Assembly (NCBI GenBank): GCA_026705295.1 | Contig: JAPPBA010000180.1 | Location: 1 to 64,000 of the forward strand | Direction of reading: 5' to 3' | Source of the DNA: Candidatus Palauibacter australiensis | GTDB lineage: Bacteria; Gemmatimonadota; Gemmatimonadetes; Palauibacterales; Palauibacteraceae | DNA: 64,000 nt | Shown here: positions 6,336-33,815 of the stretch, one piece after another | Layout of the letters: each line of letters opens with the position of its first letter | Numbering within the stretch: the first letter of the stretch is position 1 | Position numbers and translations under genes: made by a program | Notes under the pieces: generated by a model | What the model was told of the DNA's origin: nothing | The model's database searches: none | Seen by the model: the letters and a program-made list of their open reading frames with translations, nothing else

Positions 6336-7454
6336 ATGCCGATCGCCCACCACACCGGGAATCGCCCCTTGGACCGTGTACGCCGGAGGCGGAGGGGCCG
6401 CCGGCTTCTCGCCGCCACGACGGTCGTAGCGGCCGCGACCGTCCTTGCCGCCGCCGGACCCGTCTCGGCGCAGAGCGAGCCGCCCGCGAAACCGCCGGCC
6501 GACTGGGAGGCGACGGCGATCGACTACAGCAACGTCCCCTATCCGCACCCGGTGTCGTACCTCGACGTCGAGGTCTATGGGAAGGACTATCGGCTCGCGT
6601 ACATGGATGTGGCTCCGGCGGGCGCCCCGAACGGACAGACGGTCGTCCTCTTTCACGGGATGAACTTCTTCGCGGCCGGGTTCCGGCCCACGATCGAGGC
6701 GCTGCGGAACGCGGGGTTCCGGGTGATCGCGATCGACCGGCTGGGCTTCGGCCGCTCCTCGAAACCCATCATCCACTACAACCTCCACATCCCCGCGCGG
6801 AACGCGAAGCGGCTGCTCGACGCGCTCGGAGTCGAGCGCGCCGCGATCGTCGGACACTCGATGGGCGGAATGGTGGCGACGCGGTTCGCCTCGACGTATC
6901 CCGAGGCGACGACGCACGTCGCCATGGTGAACCAGATCGGCCTCACCGACTCCCGTCCCGGCCGGGGGTGGACCGACGCGGATGAGAACTACGCTTCGGT
7001 GCTCAACGGGACGACGTATCAGTCGGTCCTGCGCGGGCACATGCGGTACTACCCGAACGGCTGGCGCCCGGAGTACCTCGAGTGGGTGAAGGTCCAGTAC
7101 GGCCTCACGCTGAGCGGAGACTGGCCGCGCATGGCGCGGGTGCGGGCGGCGCAGCGCGCGATTCTCTACGAGGATCCCGTCGTCTACGAGTGGCAGCACA
7201 TCGCGACGAAAGCGCTCGTCATCGGCGGCGCCGATGACCGCCTCGTGGCCGACTACCCGGCGCTCGCCCGAAATGTCGCCGAGCAGTTGCAGAACGCCGA
7301 ACTCGTGATCTTCCCCGAGGTCGGGCACTCGCCGCAGTTCGAGATTCCGGAGCGCTTCCACGCGGAGTTGGTCCGGTTCCTGCGCTCCGACCCGGACGAG
7401 CCCGCCGATCCGTCGTGGCGGGAAACGGACGTCGGGCGGCGGCGGGGTTCGTAG
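6336..7454 (+). CDS. Secreted alpha/beta hydrolase
   Basis: The start at ATG is supported by GAAGGGAGGA just upstream and gives 372 residues. An Arg-rich N-terminus and hydrophobic core (about 23-46, ending SAQ) form a long signal peptide. The alpha/beta hydrolase fold begins near residue 75. The oxyanion region is VVLFHGMN, the nucleophile elbow GHSMGG at 173-178 gives Ser175, the acid is probably Asp300 or Asp301 in GGADDR, and the base is His331 in VGHSP. Together these give a complete triad. It resembles haloperoxidase/esterase-like hydrolases, but the substrate is not predictable. It lies 38 bp after the cyclophilin gene and 35 bp before a haem lipoprotein, so it is likely part of one transcript. 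Confidence 0.88.
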   Translation: MPIAHHTGNRPLDRVRRRRRGRRLLAATTVVAAATVLAAAGPVSAQSEPPAKPPADWEATAIDYSNVPYPHPVSYLDVEVYGKDYRLAYMDVAPAGAPNGQTVVLFHGMNFFAAGFRPTIEALRNAGFRVIAIDRLGFGRSSKPIIHYNLHIPARNAKRLLDALGVERAAIVGHSMGGMVATRFASTYPEATTHVAMVNQIGLTDSRPGRGWTDADENYASVLNGTTYQSVLRGHMRYYPNGWRPEYLEWVKVQYGLTLSGDWPRMARVRAAQRAILYEDPVVYEWQHIATKALVIGGADDRLVADYPALARNVAEQLQNAELVIFPEVGHSPQFEIPERFHAELVRFLRSDPDEPADPSWRETDVGRRRGS

Positions 7455-28382: not shown

Positions 28383-29612
28383 CTAGCGATGCTCTCGGTG
28401 TTCGCGGTATCGGTACGGCACCGGCAAGTGTTCAGGCGCGTACCGCTCGCCTTCATGGCCCCGCACTCCCTCGTGTTCCCGCGGTTGCAGGTGCTCGGAA
28501 GCGCGCCCGTCTTCGTGGGGAAGGTCTCCGGAGGGAGCCACGGCGGGAGCGAGCAGGGGGGCAAGCGCAAGGAGGCCGACGACGCTCATGCCTCGCCAGC
28601 CGCCCGCGGGCGGCTGCGGCGAACCGCGTTCGTTCAGCAGGCGCCGAACACGCCGTTCCAGTTGTGAGCGGCGCCGACCGATGCAGGGTACGGGGATGCT
28701 CCGATCGCGCGGGACGACCCACCCGGCCACTTCGGTCAGGCAACTCGCCATGGCGAAACGGTCTTCGAGCTGGCTCGCCGCCCAGTCGTCACACTGCTCC
28801 TCGGTGGCGAGGCGTACCTCACGCACCGCAAGCCGGATGAGAGGCTGAAAGAAGAAGATCGCCTGCACGACGTTCAGGATCCCCAGCCGGACCGTGTCGT
28901 GGCGCCGGTGGTGCGCGACCTCGTGGCCCAGAAGCGCAGTGAGTTCGCCATCGTCCAGTTCGTGAAAGGCGCGAACCGGCACACAGATTTCGCGACGGGG
29001 TCCCACGCCGAGCGCCAGCGGCGAACCGAGCGCGTGGCACTCCGTCAGGCGCGGCGGCGAGTCCAACGCCGCTCTGCGGCTGAGCGACGCCAGCGCACGG
29101 GAAGCCCGCGTATCCGCCACCGGCTCGCGATGGAGGAGGCGGCGCCGGAGCATCGCCAGCCGAAGGAGGTAGAGGGCGAGCAGGCCGCTCGCGAGAATGA
29201 GCCACGCGGCGCCGGCGGGCCGGGACCAGCCCGGGCTGATCGCGGCATCGCTGTGGGCCGGCTCGCGGTCGCCGTGGGCCGCTTCGCCTGAGCCGCGGAA
29301 CTCAACGCCCGCGCGCAGGGGGATCGGCGCGACGACCGCACCACCGCCGTGCTCACCCTGTTCGCCCTCAGCGTCGGGTCGCTCCGCGCCGCTGACGAAG
29401 GCAGGCGCCGGAAGCCGCCAGATCGCCGCCTCCGGCGAGACGAACGCCCGGGTCGTCGGCGTGATGAGACTCGCGGCGAGCGCCGTGCACCAGATCGTTT
29501 CCTTCAGACGCGGATGCGTCCGGGGGAAGAGGCGCAGACCGAGCCAGGCGGCGCCGCACCACAGCGTGCTATGCACGAGGAACGCGAGCAGCCACGCCAT
29601 CACGCCGTTCAT
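28383..29612 (-). CDS. M56 (BlaR1/MecR1-like) membrane metallopeptidase with His/Glu-rich tail
   Basis: The 409-residue protein has four likely membrane spans (about 5-27, 38-56, 133-153, 341-360) and a zinc-protease domain on the cytosolic loop. This has HEVAHHRRHD with His230, Glu231 and His234, and EEQCDDWA further on as the probable third-ligand region. In BlaR1/MecR1, an outside signal activates this domain, which leads to removal of the BlaI/MecI repressor. Here the usual penicillin-binding C-terminal domain is absent. After the last span there is only a 49-residue tail with seven His (EHLQPREHEGVRGHEGER and REHREHR). The loop between spans 2 and 3 is also Glu/His/Gly-rich. It overlaps the BlaI-type gene by 4 bp. 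A metal or polyanion signal is possible. Confidence 0.85.
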   Translation of the reverse strand: MNGVMAWLLAFLVHSTLWCGAAWLGLRLFPRTHPRLKETIWCTALAASLITPTTRAFVSPEAAIWRLPAPAFVSGAERPDAEGEQGEHGGGAVVAPIPLRAGVEFRGSGEAAHGDREPAHSDAAISPGWSRPAGAAWLILASGLLALYLLRLAMLRRRLLHREPVADTRASRALASLSRRAALDSPPRLTECHALGSPLALGVGPRREICVPVRAFHELDDGELTALLGHEVAHHRRHDTVRLGILNVVQAIFFFQPLIRLAVREVRLATEEQCDDWAASQLEDRFAMASCLTEVAGWVVPRDRSIPVPCIGRRRSQLERRVRRLLNERGSPQPPAGGWRGMSVVGLLALAPLLAPAVAPSGDLPHEDGRASEHLQPREHEGVRGHEGERYAPEHLPVPYRYREHREHR

Positions 29613-29995
29613 CGCGCTCCACCCTTCCGTTTCGCGGCGACGAGGGCCCTGAGATCATCGAGATCCTCGACGTCGACCTCGCCGGATTCGATCAGGTGGT
29701 TGACCAGCGCCGCGCTGTCGCCGGAGAACAGGCGCTGCACGAGATCACCGACCATCCCGTCGCGAACATCCGTCTCGGCGATCGCGGGCCGGTAGATGAA
29801 CTGCCGGCCGTTCAGTCGGTGACTCACGCACCCGTACTCCTCGAGCTTGCGCAGCATCGTCTTGATCGTCGTGACGGCAAGACCGCGCTCCTCGAAGAGA
29901 GCCCTGTGGACCTCGATCGCCGGCGCTTCACCGCGCTCCCACAGTACGCGCATGATCGCGAGCTGCAGGTCTCCGAGTCGACGTTTCCGTTTCAT
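29609..29995 (-). CDS. BlaI/MecI/CopY-family transcriptional repressor
   Basis: This 128-residue winged-helix protein shows LGDLQLAIMRVLWERGEAP, TTIKTMLRKLEEYGC and HRLNGRQFIYRPAI, the core of the BlaI/MecI DNA-binding domain. A short C-terminal dimerisation region follows (EVDVEDLDDLRALVAAKR). These repressors bind ACTAC/GTAGT-type dyads and are released when the partner M56 protease is activated. The M56 gene overlaps the stop codon. A possible site, GATAGTCATATC, lies 40 bp before the start, and better dyads lie at 31595-31627 ahead of the upstream genes, so autoregulation of the whole group is likely. There is no CopY-type Cys motif. Confidence 0.88.
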   Translation of the reverse strand: MKRKRRLGDLQLAIMRVLWERGEAPAIEVHRALFEERGLAVTTIKTMLRKLEEYGCVSHRLNGRQFIYRPAIAETDVRDGMVGDLVQRLFSGDSAALVNHLIESGEVDVEDLDDLRALVAAKRKGGAR

Positions 29996-30044
29996 GGCTG
30001 GCCCTTCCGCATTGGGACCTGGCGGCGGTTACCGAGATAGTCAT

Positions 30045-30090
30045 ATCCATCGACCCCGGATCCCGACAAGGGTTCCCGGGGTCGATGGAT
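30045..30090. terminator. 15-bp perfect inverted repeat upstream of the BlaI-type gene
   Basis: ATCCATCGACCCCGG (30045-30059) is exactly repeated in reverse complement at 30076-30090, around a 16-nt loop that itself holds CCC/GGG. It lies between the lipoprotein stop (30113) and the repressor start (29995). It may end or attenuate the upstream transcript, giving different levels of the two halves. There is no T-run. Confidence 0.5.
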
Positions 30091-30112
30091 CGCGAGGCAA
30101 CCGCCTGCGGTC

Positions 30113-30496
30113 TCAGCTTCCCGGTCCGATCTCGATGTGGACGCTGAACGCCGTGAAGCTCTGACCCCGGGCGTCGAGTTCGACCGGATTCGTTTCACCC
30201 GCCCCGATCACGATCCGGGGCGTCGGGCCCAGTTCGACCCCGTTCGACAGGTGGATTTCGATCCGCACGTCCGCCACGGCCGCGCCGGTCGTGTTCGTGA
30301 GCGTACCGGTGAAGGTCTCGTTCGGCTGGTCGTAGCGAAGGACGAGATCGACGCCCGCGCGGCTCTCCCTCGCGGTATCCGACAGTTGGTATTGCGTGCC
30401 GCTCTCGCCCGGCTCCGTTGAGCTGTTGCCGCATCCGGCGGCGGCGAGAGTGGCGGCCATGACCACGGCCATCGTCAGGATTCTCTGCAGCTTCAT
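30113..30496 (-). CDS. Lipoprotein with FxLYD-like domain
   Basis: The 127-residue product starts at MKLQRILT and has a lipobox ending at Cys22 (LAAAGC). The mature part is one small beta-sandwich: DLVLRYDQPNETFTGTLTN and VRIEIHLSNGVELGPTPRI. This is close to residues 143-210 of the next protein upstream (GSVTNTT, VRVEIHLDNGTELGPTKRI) and resembles FxLYD-type domains, which bind or present partners at the cell surface in other bacteria. The function here is unknown. It is on the same strand as the repressor and M56 genes, but a hairpin separates it from them. Confidence 0.72.
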   Translation of the reverse strand: MKLQRILTMAVVMAATLAAAGCGNSSTEPGESGTQYQLSDTARESRAGVDLVLRYDQPNETFTGTLTNTTGAAVADVRIEIHLSNGVELGPTPRIVIGAGETNPVELDARGQSFTAFSVHIEIGPGS

Positions 30497-30614
30497 TTTG
30501 ATCCTCGTCTGTTCGATGTTCGATCCCACAAAGGGTGCTTCTTCGCCGTGCCCGGTTTGACGCGCCAACCATGACGCGGGTCACTCGGCGGACCCGGCGG
30601 AGACGGATGCGAGG

Positions 30615-31538
30615 CTACCGCGACCTCGCCTTCAACTCGGCTTCCAACGCGTGCAGCTCGCCGCGCAGGATCCGGAGCTGGTTGTACAGCGGACGGTAGG
30701 CAGCGTCCTGCGGACGGGCTCCATCGCCGCGAGCTTCGCCACCGCTTTCACGGCTCCCGTGCTCGCCGCCGCCCTCCCGACCGCCGTGCTCGCCGCCGCC
30801 CTCGCGGCCGCCGTGCCCTTCGCCACCCTCTTCACCTCCAGTGCCGTGGCCTTGCTCGACACCGGCTTCGGGATGGCTGACCCAGGAACTGAATTCTTCG
30901 CCGAACGTCCCGAGCTCGACGGGAACCGTCTGACCCGGTCTCACGTCGATGCGCTTCGTCGGACCGAGTTCCGTGCCGTTGTCCAGGTGGATCTCGACGC
31001 GCACCTGCGACAGGGTCGTGGCCGTCGTGTTCGTCACCGAACCCGCGAAGACCTGCGTGTTGGGGTTGAACTGAAGGACGAGGCGAGCACCGTTCGCGAA
31101 GACCTCGTCCTGCCCCGTCACCTTCGCGAGGTAGGCGCCGCCTTCCTCGCCCCCTTCGCCGCCCTCTCGCCCTGCGTGCTCGCCACCACCTTCCCCGCCT
31201 GCGTGCTCGCCACGACCTTCGCGGCCACCGTGCTCGCCGCGGCCCTCGCGACCTTCCCGGCCCTCGCGGCCTTCCCGGTTTGCCGGCGAACCGGCCTGTG
31301 GGCCGGCCGGATGGGGGCTGAGCCCCGCGAGCACGCGCGTCTCGCGGAGCGCGGCGCGAGCCTGTTTCACCATGCCATAGAGCGCATCCGCGTCCGCGCT
31401 GTTCCCGATGGCCTGCCGTGTCTGCCCTTCCTGCCCCTCCTGCACAGGGGGCGCCTCGTCCCCCCCGCCACTCAACAGCGCGGGCACTCCTGCTCCCGCG
31501 GCGCCGAGCAGCATCAGCGATACGATCGCGATCTTCAT
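30615..31538 (-). CDS. Secreted protein with Glu/His/Gly/Arg-rich repeats flanking an FxLYD-like domain
   Basis: The 307-residue product begins MKIAIVSLMLL; a GTG one codon upstream is equally possible. A signal peptide spans about 1-22. Two low-complexity tracts, about 88-135 (units like GREGRGEH) and 229-275 (three copies of a nine-residue unit, xHGGREGGG), flank a beta-sandwich at 136-211 that closely matches the lipoprotein downstream. A short charged helix ends the protein (YNQLRILRGELHALEAELKA). The regularly spaced His and Glu could chelate metal ions or bind anionic polymers, but no activity is known. It is the first gene of the BlaI/M56 group and is preceded by operator-like dyads. 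Its frame is supported by the alignment with the lipoprotein and by the AAAGGG ribosome site. Confidence 0.78.
   Translation of the reverse strand: MKIAIVSLMLLGAAGAGVPALLSGGGDEAPPVQEGQEGQTRQAIGNSADADALYGMVKQARAALRETRVLAGLSPHPAGPQAGSPANREGREGREGREGRGEHGGREGRGEHAGGEGGGEHAGREGGEGGEEGGAYLAKVTGQDEVFANGARLVLQFNPNTQVFAGSVTNTTATTLSQVRVEIHLDNGTELGPTKRIDVRPGQTVPVELGTFGEEFSSWVSHPEAGVEQGHGTGGEEGGEGHGGREGGGEHGGREGGGEHGSRESGGEARGDGARPQDAAYRPLYNQLRILRGELHALEAELKARSR
30738..30818. repeat. Three 27-bp tandem repeats inside the Glu/His-rich gene
   Basis: Three consecutive 27-bp units encode the nine-residue unit (G/E)HGGREGGG, with drift in the last copy. A second, more degenerate tract lies at 31134-31277. 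Both are multiples of three and keep the frame, so copy number could vary without breaking the protein. Confidence 0.75.
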
Positions 31539-31594
31539 CACCAGATTCCCTTTCCGCGTTTCCCGGTTCGTGCGGGACTGGTTCGCCCGCTTGA

Positions 31595-31627
31595 TTGACT
31601 ACCACAATAGTCAACTACTCCGGTAGT
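31595..31627. promoter_or_regulatory. Candidate BlaI-type operator: two adjacent dyads
   Basis: TTGACTA-CCACAA-TAGTCAA (31595-31614) is a perfect 7-bp inverted repeat. It abuts ACTAC-TCCG-GTAGT (31614-31627), a perfect 5-bp dyad. ACTAC/GTAGT half-sites are typical of BlaI/MecI operators. The pair lies about 60-90 bp before the Glu/His-rich gene, where a promoter is expected, and TTGACT could serve as a -35 element. A related TGACTAT occurs before the repressor gene. Binding is inferred. Confidence 0.6.
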
Positions 31628-31731
31628 CTAGATGAGTTCCATGTGGCGCACAAGGCTCTCGGATGCAGGCAGCCCGGGAACGCCTTCGGCCCAGGCCTCG
31701 ATGCGGGTGGGATGTGTTGGGTGTCGCTGCG

Positions 31732-31817: not shown

Positions 31818-33815
31818 TTAGCCCTCCGGCGAGAGGACGAGCCGGACCGCGCCGCGCGGGCGGTCGGCCGTATAGAGGGCGAGTTCGAACCGCCCCGCGA
31901 GCAGATCGTCCATGTCGGCGGCGCTCAGGGTCAGGGTGCCCTCGGCCGACGTGTGGCCCGGGCCGGAGAGACGTCGCACGACCGCGTTCGGCCGCGTCCC
32001 GCTGCCCCGGCGCTGGAGCACGATCGCGTGGGCGTCCGCCGACCCGAGGCCGGACGTGGAGATGACGTAGCGCAGCGTGCCGCGCGGCAGGTCGAGGCTG
32101 AAGCTGCCGTGGAGCCGAGGGGCGGCGGGCCGCCCGGCCCATCCGCCGTCTCCGGCGACGCTGAAGCGGAGCGGTTCCGGCGCGCGGCCGTCCACGAGCG
32201 GGGGCGTGCGGCGGGGCGCGCGGCGCGGCTCGATCGCCCGTTCGAGCGCGTACGCGAACGAGACCAGGCGCGCATCGTCGAACGGGCGGCCGATCAGCTC
32301 GACGCCGGTCGGCATCCCGGTCCGCGTGAAGCCCGCGGGCGCGCTGACCGCCGGGAGCCCGCTGTGCGCGGCCAGCTGGCACGTTCCTCCGACCGGCGGT
32401 GAGCCGATCCGCGCGGGGTCGCGCCGCAGCGTCGGGTAGGCGATCGCGTCGAGCCGCTCCGCGTCCATGAACGCCACGATCGCTTCCCGCAGCGCGGCCT
32501 GCCGCTCCAGCGTCTCGGCATAGGCCGCCTCGTCGCGCGGGCCCGCCTCGCTGCGCCGCCGGAAGGTGCCGTCGAGCTGCTCGTGGTGCAGTCCGAGTTC
32601 CACGATCTCCCCGAGCGACGCCACCGGTGCGCCACCGGGCGCCGCCAGGTATTCGGCGAGATCCACCGCGAATTCGTGCCCGATCACGCCCGTATTCGCG
32701 AGCAGCGAATCCTGCTCGGGGATCTCGACGTCGACGATCTCCGCCCCCGCCGCGGCCATCGCGTCGAGGGCGGCGCGAACGGTCGCCGTGACCGGAGCTT
32801 CCGCGCCCGAATCCGACAGCCACTCCGTCAGGGCCCCGATGCGCGCCCCCGCCAGCGACCCCGCGTCGAGCGCGACTCGGAAACCGATGGGCTCTCGGCC
32901 GCGCATCGCCTCCGTGGCCGGATCCGCCGCGTCCGCGCCGACCGTCGCGTCGAGGGCGATCGCGAGGTCCATGACGGAGCGCGCCAGCGGCCCGCCCGTA
33001 TCCTGCGTATGCGACAGGGGGATGAGCCCGTCAATGCTCGACAGCCCCTTCGTCGGCCGCAGCCCGACGAGGTTGTGGACCGACGACGGGATGCGGATCG
33101 ATCCGCACGTGTCCGACCCCCATCCCACGGCGCCGAAGCTCGCCGCCACCGCGGCGCCCGTTCCGCCGGAGGAGCCGCCGGGGTTCCTCGCCGGATCGTA
33201 CGGGTTCCGCGTCTGCCCGCCGAGCGAACTGATGCTCGTGATCCCCGCCGCCAGCTCGTGCATGTTCGTCTTGGCGAGGATGATCGCCCCCGCCTCGCGC
33301 AGCTTACGCACCTGGAAGGCGTCGTCCGCCGGCGTCCACCCCGCGAGCGCCACCGTCGACCCGGCCGTGGGCATGTCGAAGGTGTCGTAGTTGTCCTTGA
33401 GGAGGATGGGAATCCCATGCAAAGGCCCTCTCACCCGCCCCGCTGCGCGCTCTGCGTCGAGCCGCCGCGCCTGTTCCCTCGCCGTGGGATGGAGGCGGAT
33501 GATCGCGTTGAGCGTCGGCCCCGCCCGGTCGTACGCCGCGATCCGGGCGAAGTAGGCGTCCACCAGGCCGACCGAGCTCGCCCGGCCCGACTCGAGCGCC
33601 GCCTGGAGCTCGGGGATCGAAGCCTCCCATACCTCGAACGGCGCCGACCCGGCGGCGTCCGCCGTCTGGGCGGAGAGTCGTGCCGCGGACGGGACTCCCG
33701 CCGCCAACACGAGACCCCACGCGAGGCGGCGGGTGATGAGGCGGCGGGTGATGAGGCGGCGGACAGCGAGGCCGGGGACGATGCGGCCCCGGGCGACGAG
33801 GTTAGCGGGTTCCAT
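31818..33815 (-). CDS. Secreted amidase with C-terminal CHRD domain
   Basis: The 665-residue protein has a signal segment after an Arg-rich start containing a direct repeat (RRLITRRLITRR, from a 15-bp DNA repeat). The amidase-signature domain spans about 60-520. Lys140 lies in ILLKDNYDT, the cis-Ser in PGGSSGGTG (about 215-216), and the nucleophile Ser239 in DTCGSIRIP. These give a complete Ser-Ser-Lys triad that hydrolyses amides. From about 545 a CHRD-type beta domain follows (FSLDLPRGTLRYVIS, then LTLSAADMDDLLAGRFELAL and RPRGAVRLVL). CHRD is usually a stand-alone or chordin-type secreted domain; its fusion to an amidase is unusual to my knowledge. The start overlaps the upstream thioesterase gene by 14 bp. 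The substrate is unknown. Confidence 0.85.
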   Translation of the reverse strand: MEPANLVARGRIVPGLAVRRLITRRLITRRLAWGLVLAAGVPSAARLSAQTADAAGSAPFEVWEASIPELQAALESGRASSVGLVDAYFARIAAYDRAGPTLNAIIRLHPTAREQARRLDAERAAGRVRGPLHGIPILLKDNYDTFDMPTAGSTVALAGWTPADDAFQVRKLREAGAIILAKTNMHELAAGITSISSLGGQTRNPYDPARNPGGSSGGTGAAVAASFGAVGWGSDTCGSIRIPSSVHNLVGLRPTKGLSSIDGLIPLSHTQDTGGPLARSVMDLAIALDATVGADAADPATEAMRGREPIGFRVALDAGSLAGARIGALTEWLSDSGAEAPVTATVRAALDAMAAAGAEIVDVEIPEQDSLLANTGVIGHEFAVDLAEYLAAPGGAPVASLGEIVELGLHHEQLDGTFRRRSEAGPRDEAAYAETLERQAALREAIVAFMDAERLDAIAYPTLRRDPARIGSPPVGGTCQLAAHSGLPAVSAPAGFTRTGMPTGVELIGRPFDDARLVSFAYALERAIEPRRAPRRTPPLVDGRAPEPLRFSVAGDGGWAGRPAAPRLHGSFSLDLPRGTLRYVISTSGLGSADAHAIVLQRRGSGTRPNAVVRRLSGPGHTSAEGTLTLSAADMDDLLAGRFELALYTADRPRGAVRLVLSPEG

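Follow-up and report, generated by a model that had tools for sequence, protein, structure and literature searches.

Four consecutive minus-strand genes in 'Candidatus Palauibacter australiensis' very probably form a dedicated BlaI/M56 regulon, in which a BlaI-type repressor and an M56 membrane metalloprotease would govern themselves and a family of secreted proteins, GEH and LIPO. Three observations made on sequence lead to this reading: the switch and the protein family occur in exactly the same genomes, the paired operators are exclusive to them, and family members that lie apart from the switch have kept the operator. We put the probability that a self-contained regulated-proteolysis switch explains the locus as a whole at about three in four. 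To our knowledge, BlaI/M56 pairs are common outside pathogens, and for most of them neither signal nor target is known; in this case the whole regulon is legible from sequence as one switch, one paired operator and one secreted-protein family. The machinery is familiar and the signal and purpose appear new, in 'Ca. Palauibacter' (marine Gemmatimonadota) and in a related family, and the arrangement suggests that penicillin-resistance machinery has been put to another purpose. The locus also defines a protein domain family without a Pfam match and offers a compact, testable system for the activation of sensor-less M56 proteases.

Within the window (the whole 64,000-nucleotide stretch that was analyzed) the genes span 28383–31541 and are transcribed in the order GEH, LIPO, blaI, M56; all four open reading frames of the initial annotation are present on the minus strand where it had placed them. 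GEH occupies 30615–31541, with a GTG start at 31541 and a likelier ATG at 31538; LIPO (30113–30496) encodes a 127-aa lipoprotein with the lipobox LAAAGC; and the gene for the winged-helix repressor of the BlaI/MecI family (29609–29995; 128 aa, a single Cys) overlaps that of the 409-aa M56 protease (28383–29612) by 4 bp. Between LIPO and blaI lies a strong hairpin (30045–30090; stem of about 16 bp, no T run) that may reduce read-through into blaI-M56; the folding energy of the whole gap is −63.9 kcal/mol, and conservation of the hairpin in relatives is not clear. The upstream neighbor (31818–33815) encodes an amidase fused at its C terminus to a CHRD domain, a combination that looks uncommon. 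The amidase-CHRD and DAO neighbors are kept beside the module in its own genus only and are replaced elsewhere, and hints to function from the flanking genes were therefore dropped.

GEH is a 308-aa protein composed of a signal peptide, an N-terminal helix, a Gly/Glu/His/Arg linker, an Ig-like domain of ~95 residues (about residues 137–228), a second linker and a C-terminal helix, and LIPO is a lipoprotein made up of this central domain alone. The shared domain, which had been proposed from the outset, is borne out by 41% identity over 105 aa (E=2e-16), with one correction: the LIPO segment first quoted as VEIHLSNGVELGP was misread and is in fact IEIHLSNGVELGP. GEH orthologs at 21 other loci are 61–89% identical. 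The "Glu/His repeats" attributed to GEH do exist as low-complexity linkers, but His makes up 6–7% of those in the window (Glu about 20%) and numbers 2–8 per protein across orthologs, with 2 in one ortholog, so that "Gly/Glu/Arg/His low-complexity linkers" is the better label and there is no compelling case for metal-binding linkers. The domain itself carries the signature VRVExHL..G.ELGPT...F.....HxE, and a profile search that gathered 45 non-redundant domains, one of them from a Dehalococcoidia MAG (L051), shows no variation at R181, E183, H185, E191, H223 and E225; the ExH and HxE residues may mark a site for a ligand, possibly a metal.

The domain family is undescribed. Neither Pfam nor a PDB sequence search returned a match to the shared domain, a beta-sandwich is predicted for it, and a fold search gave Ig-like matches, none reaching E 0.001 or below. 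An FxLYD assignment was considered and rejected: the label "FxLYD-like" captures a weak profile similarity between secreted beta-rich domains, whereas both proteins fall below the NF038353 cut-off (16.2 and 18.9 versus 23 bits) and have an invariant signature of their own; the term FxLYD was not found in a literature search. The predicted beta-sandwich and the abundance of the window's order in sponges and marine sediments (PMC10469786) could fit Ig-like surface proteins that serve sponge or sediment association and are switched on by a host cue. We regard this as improbable, given that the Pfam and PDB searches produced nothing adhesin-like and that the invariant charged residues argue for ligand binding over a scaffold role.

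Domains of the GEH type recur in other contexts. At other loci they follow a Glu/His linker in lipoproteins that have no operator, and in genus-mates and in a second family of the same class (f6) metallo-beta-lactamase-fold hydrolases are joined to one through a Glu/His-rich linker, at loci that lack the operator pair (L070 and L028, tested against Pfam; L020, L021, L023, L032 and L035, judged by eye). In the Dehalococcoidia MAG a two-domain Glu/His-linker relative (L051 5650–6819) lies directly before what appear by eye to be a response regulator and a histidine kinase.

The two switch proteins are readily classified. BlaI matches PF03965 (Penicillinase_R) with 100.3 bits against a gathering cut-off of 22.6, and is one of five BlaI-family proteins encoded in this genome; CopY/TcrY-type metal sensing by BlaI was discarded as a candidate (TIGR02698, 75.5 versus 121.95 bits; a single Cys and no CxC in the alignment). 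The protease matches PF05569 (65.4 bits, cut-off 31), and its HEVAH motif (H230, E231, H234) and E271 are invariant in 15 sequences. The beta-lactam sensor model NF000326 reaches 46.5 versus 400 bits and matches residues 144–287 alone, and profile searches of the module proteins found no beta-lactam-binding domain. M56 instead has two Glu/His-rich parts, a loop (about residues 71–133; 18% Glu+His) and a C-terminal tail (about 361–409; 25%), compared with 8% elsewhere in the protein and 1–8% for the loops of four sister M56s; the orthologs continue for 29–67 residues after the last predicted membrane segment. The outward orientation of loop and tail is taken over from BlaR1, and the topology rests on homology because the structure model (pLDDT 42) is too poor for use.

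The predicted operators lie upstream of GEH, where two adjacent ACTAC/GTAGT dyads had been proposed and where two sites of the form ACTAC-N4-GTAGT are present at 31598–31627. On the minus strand, candidate operator O1 (ACTACCGGAGTAGT, 31614–31627) is a perfect dyad that overlaps the −10 element, and candidate O2 (ACTATTGTGGTAGT, 31598–31611) has one mismatch and lies 16 bp from O1. The predicted promoter, TTGTGC-N17-TAGACT (31625–31653, minus strand), recurs as TTGnnn-N17-TAGACT with the −10 inside O1 in an alignment of the GEH upstream regions of 23 loci, and the TTG stands at the exact spacing in 18 of them. In the same alignment the block GACTA-N5-GTAGT-NN-ACTA-N5-GTAGT is conserved amid diverged sequence, placing a pair of inverted repeats across the −10 as in autoregulated BlaI/MecI operons. 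Before blaI there is a degenerate single site (ACTATCTCGGTAAC, 30028–30041, minus strand), weak with its 3 mismatches, at the position where the related family has a second operator pair. A scan of this genome for single dyads gave 12 sites versus 24 in the control and is uninformative alone; the predicted specificity is confined to the paired form of ACTAC-N4-GTAGT. Upstream of the operators a GGAAC(T/C) motif resembling an ECF-sigma −35 is conserved in most loci at varying distance.

Conserved co-occurrence in related genomes was looked for and found. Close GEH domains (at least 146 bits) and M56 orthologs (62–94% identity) have one and the same distribution, namely 14 of 119 related genomes, and the paired operator is present in 13 of these 14 and in none of the other 105 (reversed-pattern control, 0). 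The next-best M56s among the 119 genomes are 32–37% identical and extend far at the C-terminus, with HEAT repeats recognized there by Pfam in L100 and L103 and by eye in L102. In 22 further genomes, for which a forecast was fixed beforehand, the M56 ortholog was found in 11 of 11 expected positives and was absent from 8 of 11 expected negatives. Of the three genomes that went against the forecast, G297 and G227 have a LIPO gene adjacent to M56 or to what is left of it; G177 is a true exception that has kept BlaI-M56 with no member of the GEH/LIPO family detected. Gene order is GEH-(LIPO)-BlaI-M56-(LIPO) in nearly all loci and the flanking genes vary between locus groups; in other genomes LIPO follows M56 or is unlinked, and in several it is absent from the operon. 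The module is also found in f6 but not in those further genera of the window's family that were sampled. Two families supply essentially all of the genomes, and the compared sequences are thus not independent events. A Palauibacter genome with 7% contamination has a second, f6-like copy (L034, G003:C24), either a transfer or a contaminating contig, and L036 has an apparent LIPO deletion scar between GEH and blaI (6495–6610; codons VRIEI joined to IGPGS-stop), as recombination between two similar ATCGARATC stretches might have left.

The extent of the regulon was addressed by scanning 28 whole genomes for operator pairs at 16-bp and 15-bp spacings, with the reversed pattern as control. All 27 pairs of the 16-bp form lie before GEH genes (control, 0); the 17 pairs of the 15-bp form lie before blaI (14), before unlinked LIPO genes on other contigs (2; G318 and G359) and at one decayed copy in G227 (control, 1 match with both strands counted, in one genome). 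That copy (L106, G227:C37) has lost blaI together with the beginning of M56, retains the operator pair and LIPO, and has a second Glu/His-linker family member after LIPO. In G403, judged from identical coordinates to be the same genome as G189, GEH-LIPO and BlaI-M56-LIPO are on separate contigs with an operator pair at both. A third family lipoprotein (131 aa; G000:C64:139-534, L064; also L065, L066, L067 and L114) has a single dyad, CGTCTACCGGTGTAGTC, just before its start, which four genomes preserve without change although the surrounding sequence has diverged, and which is also present in a copy from a fifth genome; the protein is a probable distal member of the regulon. Because the separated parts in G403 and this distal family member keep their operators, the operator would act in trans. 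Together with the co-occurrence and the exclusive paired operators, such unlinked targets strongly support the original proposal of a self-contained module aimed at the domain proteins, and likewise the view that secreted GEH/LIPO proteins are, besides the switch itself, the only outputs of a closed regulon. With five BlaI-family genes, such pairs are common in this genome and a generic BlaI/M56 pair might have come to lie beside unrelated repeat proteins; exact co-occurrence, operator exclusivity and operator retention by unlinked genes refute such a chance neighborhood, to which we assign almost no weight.

The scan also bears on a switch for cell-wall or beta-lactam stress, in which M56 would sense peptidoglycan damage indirectly, a mode suggested for the sensor-less BlaR of mycobacteria, and GEH/LIPO would protect the envelope. 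The BlaI/M56 machinery is the same, and a mycobacterial BlaR works with BlaI though it has no sensor domain (PMC5473688). We nevertheless consider this unlikely: the module has no beta-lactam-binding domain and, since no gene outside it has a paired operator in the 28 genomes, neither does any beta-lactamase, PBP or cell-wall gene, a result that covers paired rather than single-dyad targets. For the paired form, the initial remark that no beta-lactamase or PBP target belongs to the group extends to all 28 genomes, where paired operators are found at module genes only.

For the self-contained proteolytic switch we propose the following cycle, by analogy with known BlaI systems. A BlaI dimer on each of O1 and O2 would cover the −10 and start region and repress the operon. 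The short Glu/His-rich loop and tail of M56 would pick up an extracytoplasmic signal, or the secreted proteins would relay it, and the cytoplasmic zinc protease of M56, thereby activated, would cut BlaI and allow GEH, LIPO, BlaI and M56 to be made; newly made BlaI would then restore repression. Less certainly, GEH and LIPO might bind the same signal through ExH...E...HxE and the Glu/His linkers, buffer it and so shut the switch off. Derepression through cleavage of BlaI by M56 is likely, and the module may sense the state of the envelope. Metal or pH sensing is plausible because M56 has a short Glu/His-rich ectodomain in place of a beta-lactam sensor; that the ligand is a metal or proton is tentative, and buffering of either is the leading, equally tentative guess for the purpose of the secreted proteins. 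The full combination, in which the ectodomain reads a metal or proton directly and frees BlaI and new Ig-like metal-binding secreted proteins buffer the same ligand, is doubtful as a whole. Alternatively, GEH and LIPO could be the sensory partners of M56, with accumulating secreted protein contacting the ectodomain as feedback on secretion or on an envelope ligand. Such a partnership would suit a regulon that is essentially these proteins plus the switch, Glu/His-rich segments common to M56 and GEH, and a GEH domain flanked by conserved helices; against it, several genomes have an operon without LIPO and GEH linkage is not constant, and we hold it, too, to be unlikely.

Among known systems, the closed GEH/LIPO regulon resembles BlaR1-BlaI and MecR1-MecI of Staphylococcus, with which it shares a BlaI-family repressor, an M56 HEXXH plus Glu, paired dyads and an autoregulated operon. 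In staphylococci a class-D-like domain of BlaR1 senses beta-lactams and the BlaR1 protease inactivates BlaI (PMC7593790), whereas the module has no class-D-like sensor and no beta-lactamase or PBP target and makes secreted domain proteins. A sensor-less M56 partner has precedent, since the mycobacterial BlaR of the Rv1846c-Rv1845c pair also lacks an extracellular sensor domain (PMC5473688); mycobacterial BlaI targets blaC, ATP synthase and other genes, in contrast to a module BlaI whose predicted targets are the GEH/LIPO family and the switch only. In C. thermocellum two BlaI proteins recognize GACTAT/GTCTAT half-sites, with two inverted repeats per target and thus four protomers (PMC8457756). 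Those regulons resemble ours in their GACTAT-like half-sites, paired repeats, tiny autoregulated extent and some functionally unknown outputs, but they belong to a Firmicute, have other output genes and have been read as a beta-lactam response. The suggestion of an undescribed system thus applies to its output proteins and to the sensor replacement, but not to the switch, which belongs to the familiar BlaI/BlaR1 type and for which a sensor-less BlaR and paired-operator regulons have been published. The BlaI-M56-HEAT loci of other Gemmatimonadota (L100, L102, L103) encode the nearest other M56s (32–37% identity), each paired with a BlaI. Some of these loci have a single ACTAC-N4-GTAGT-type site, but they differ in the long HEAT-repeat C-terminus of their M56 and have neither the GEH family nor the paired operator.
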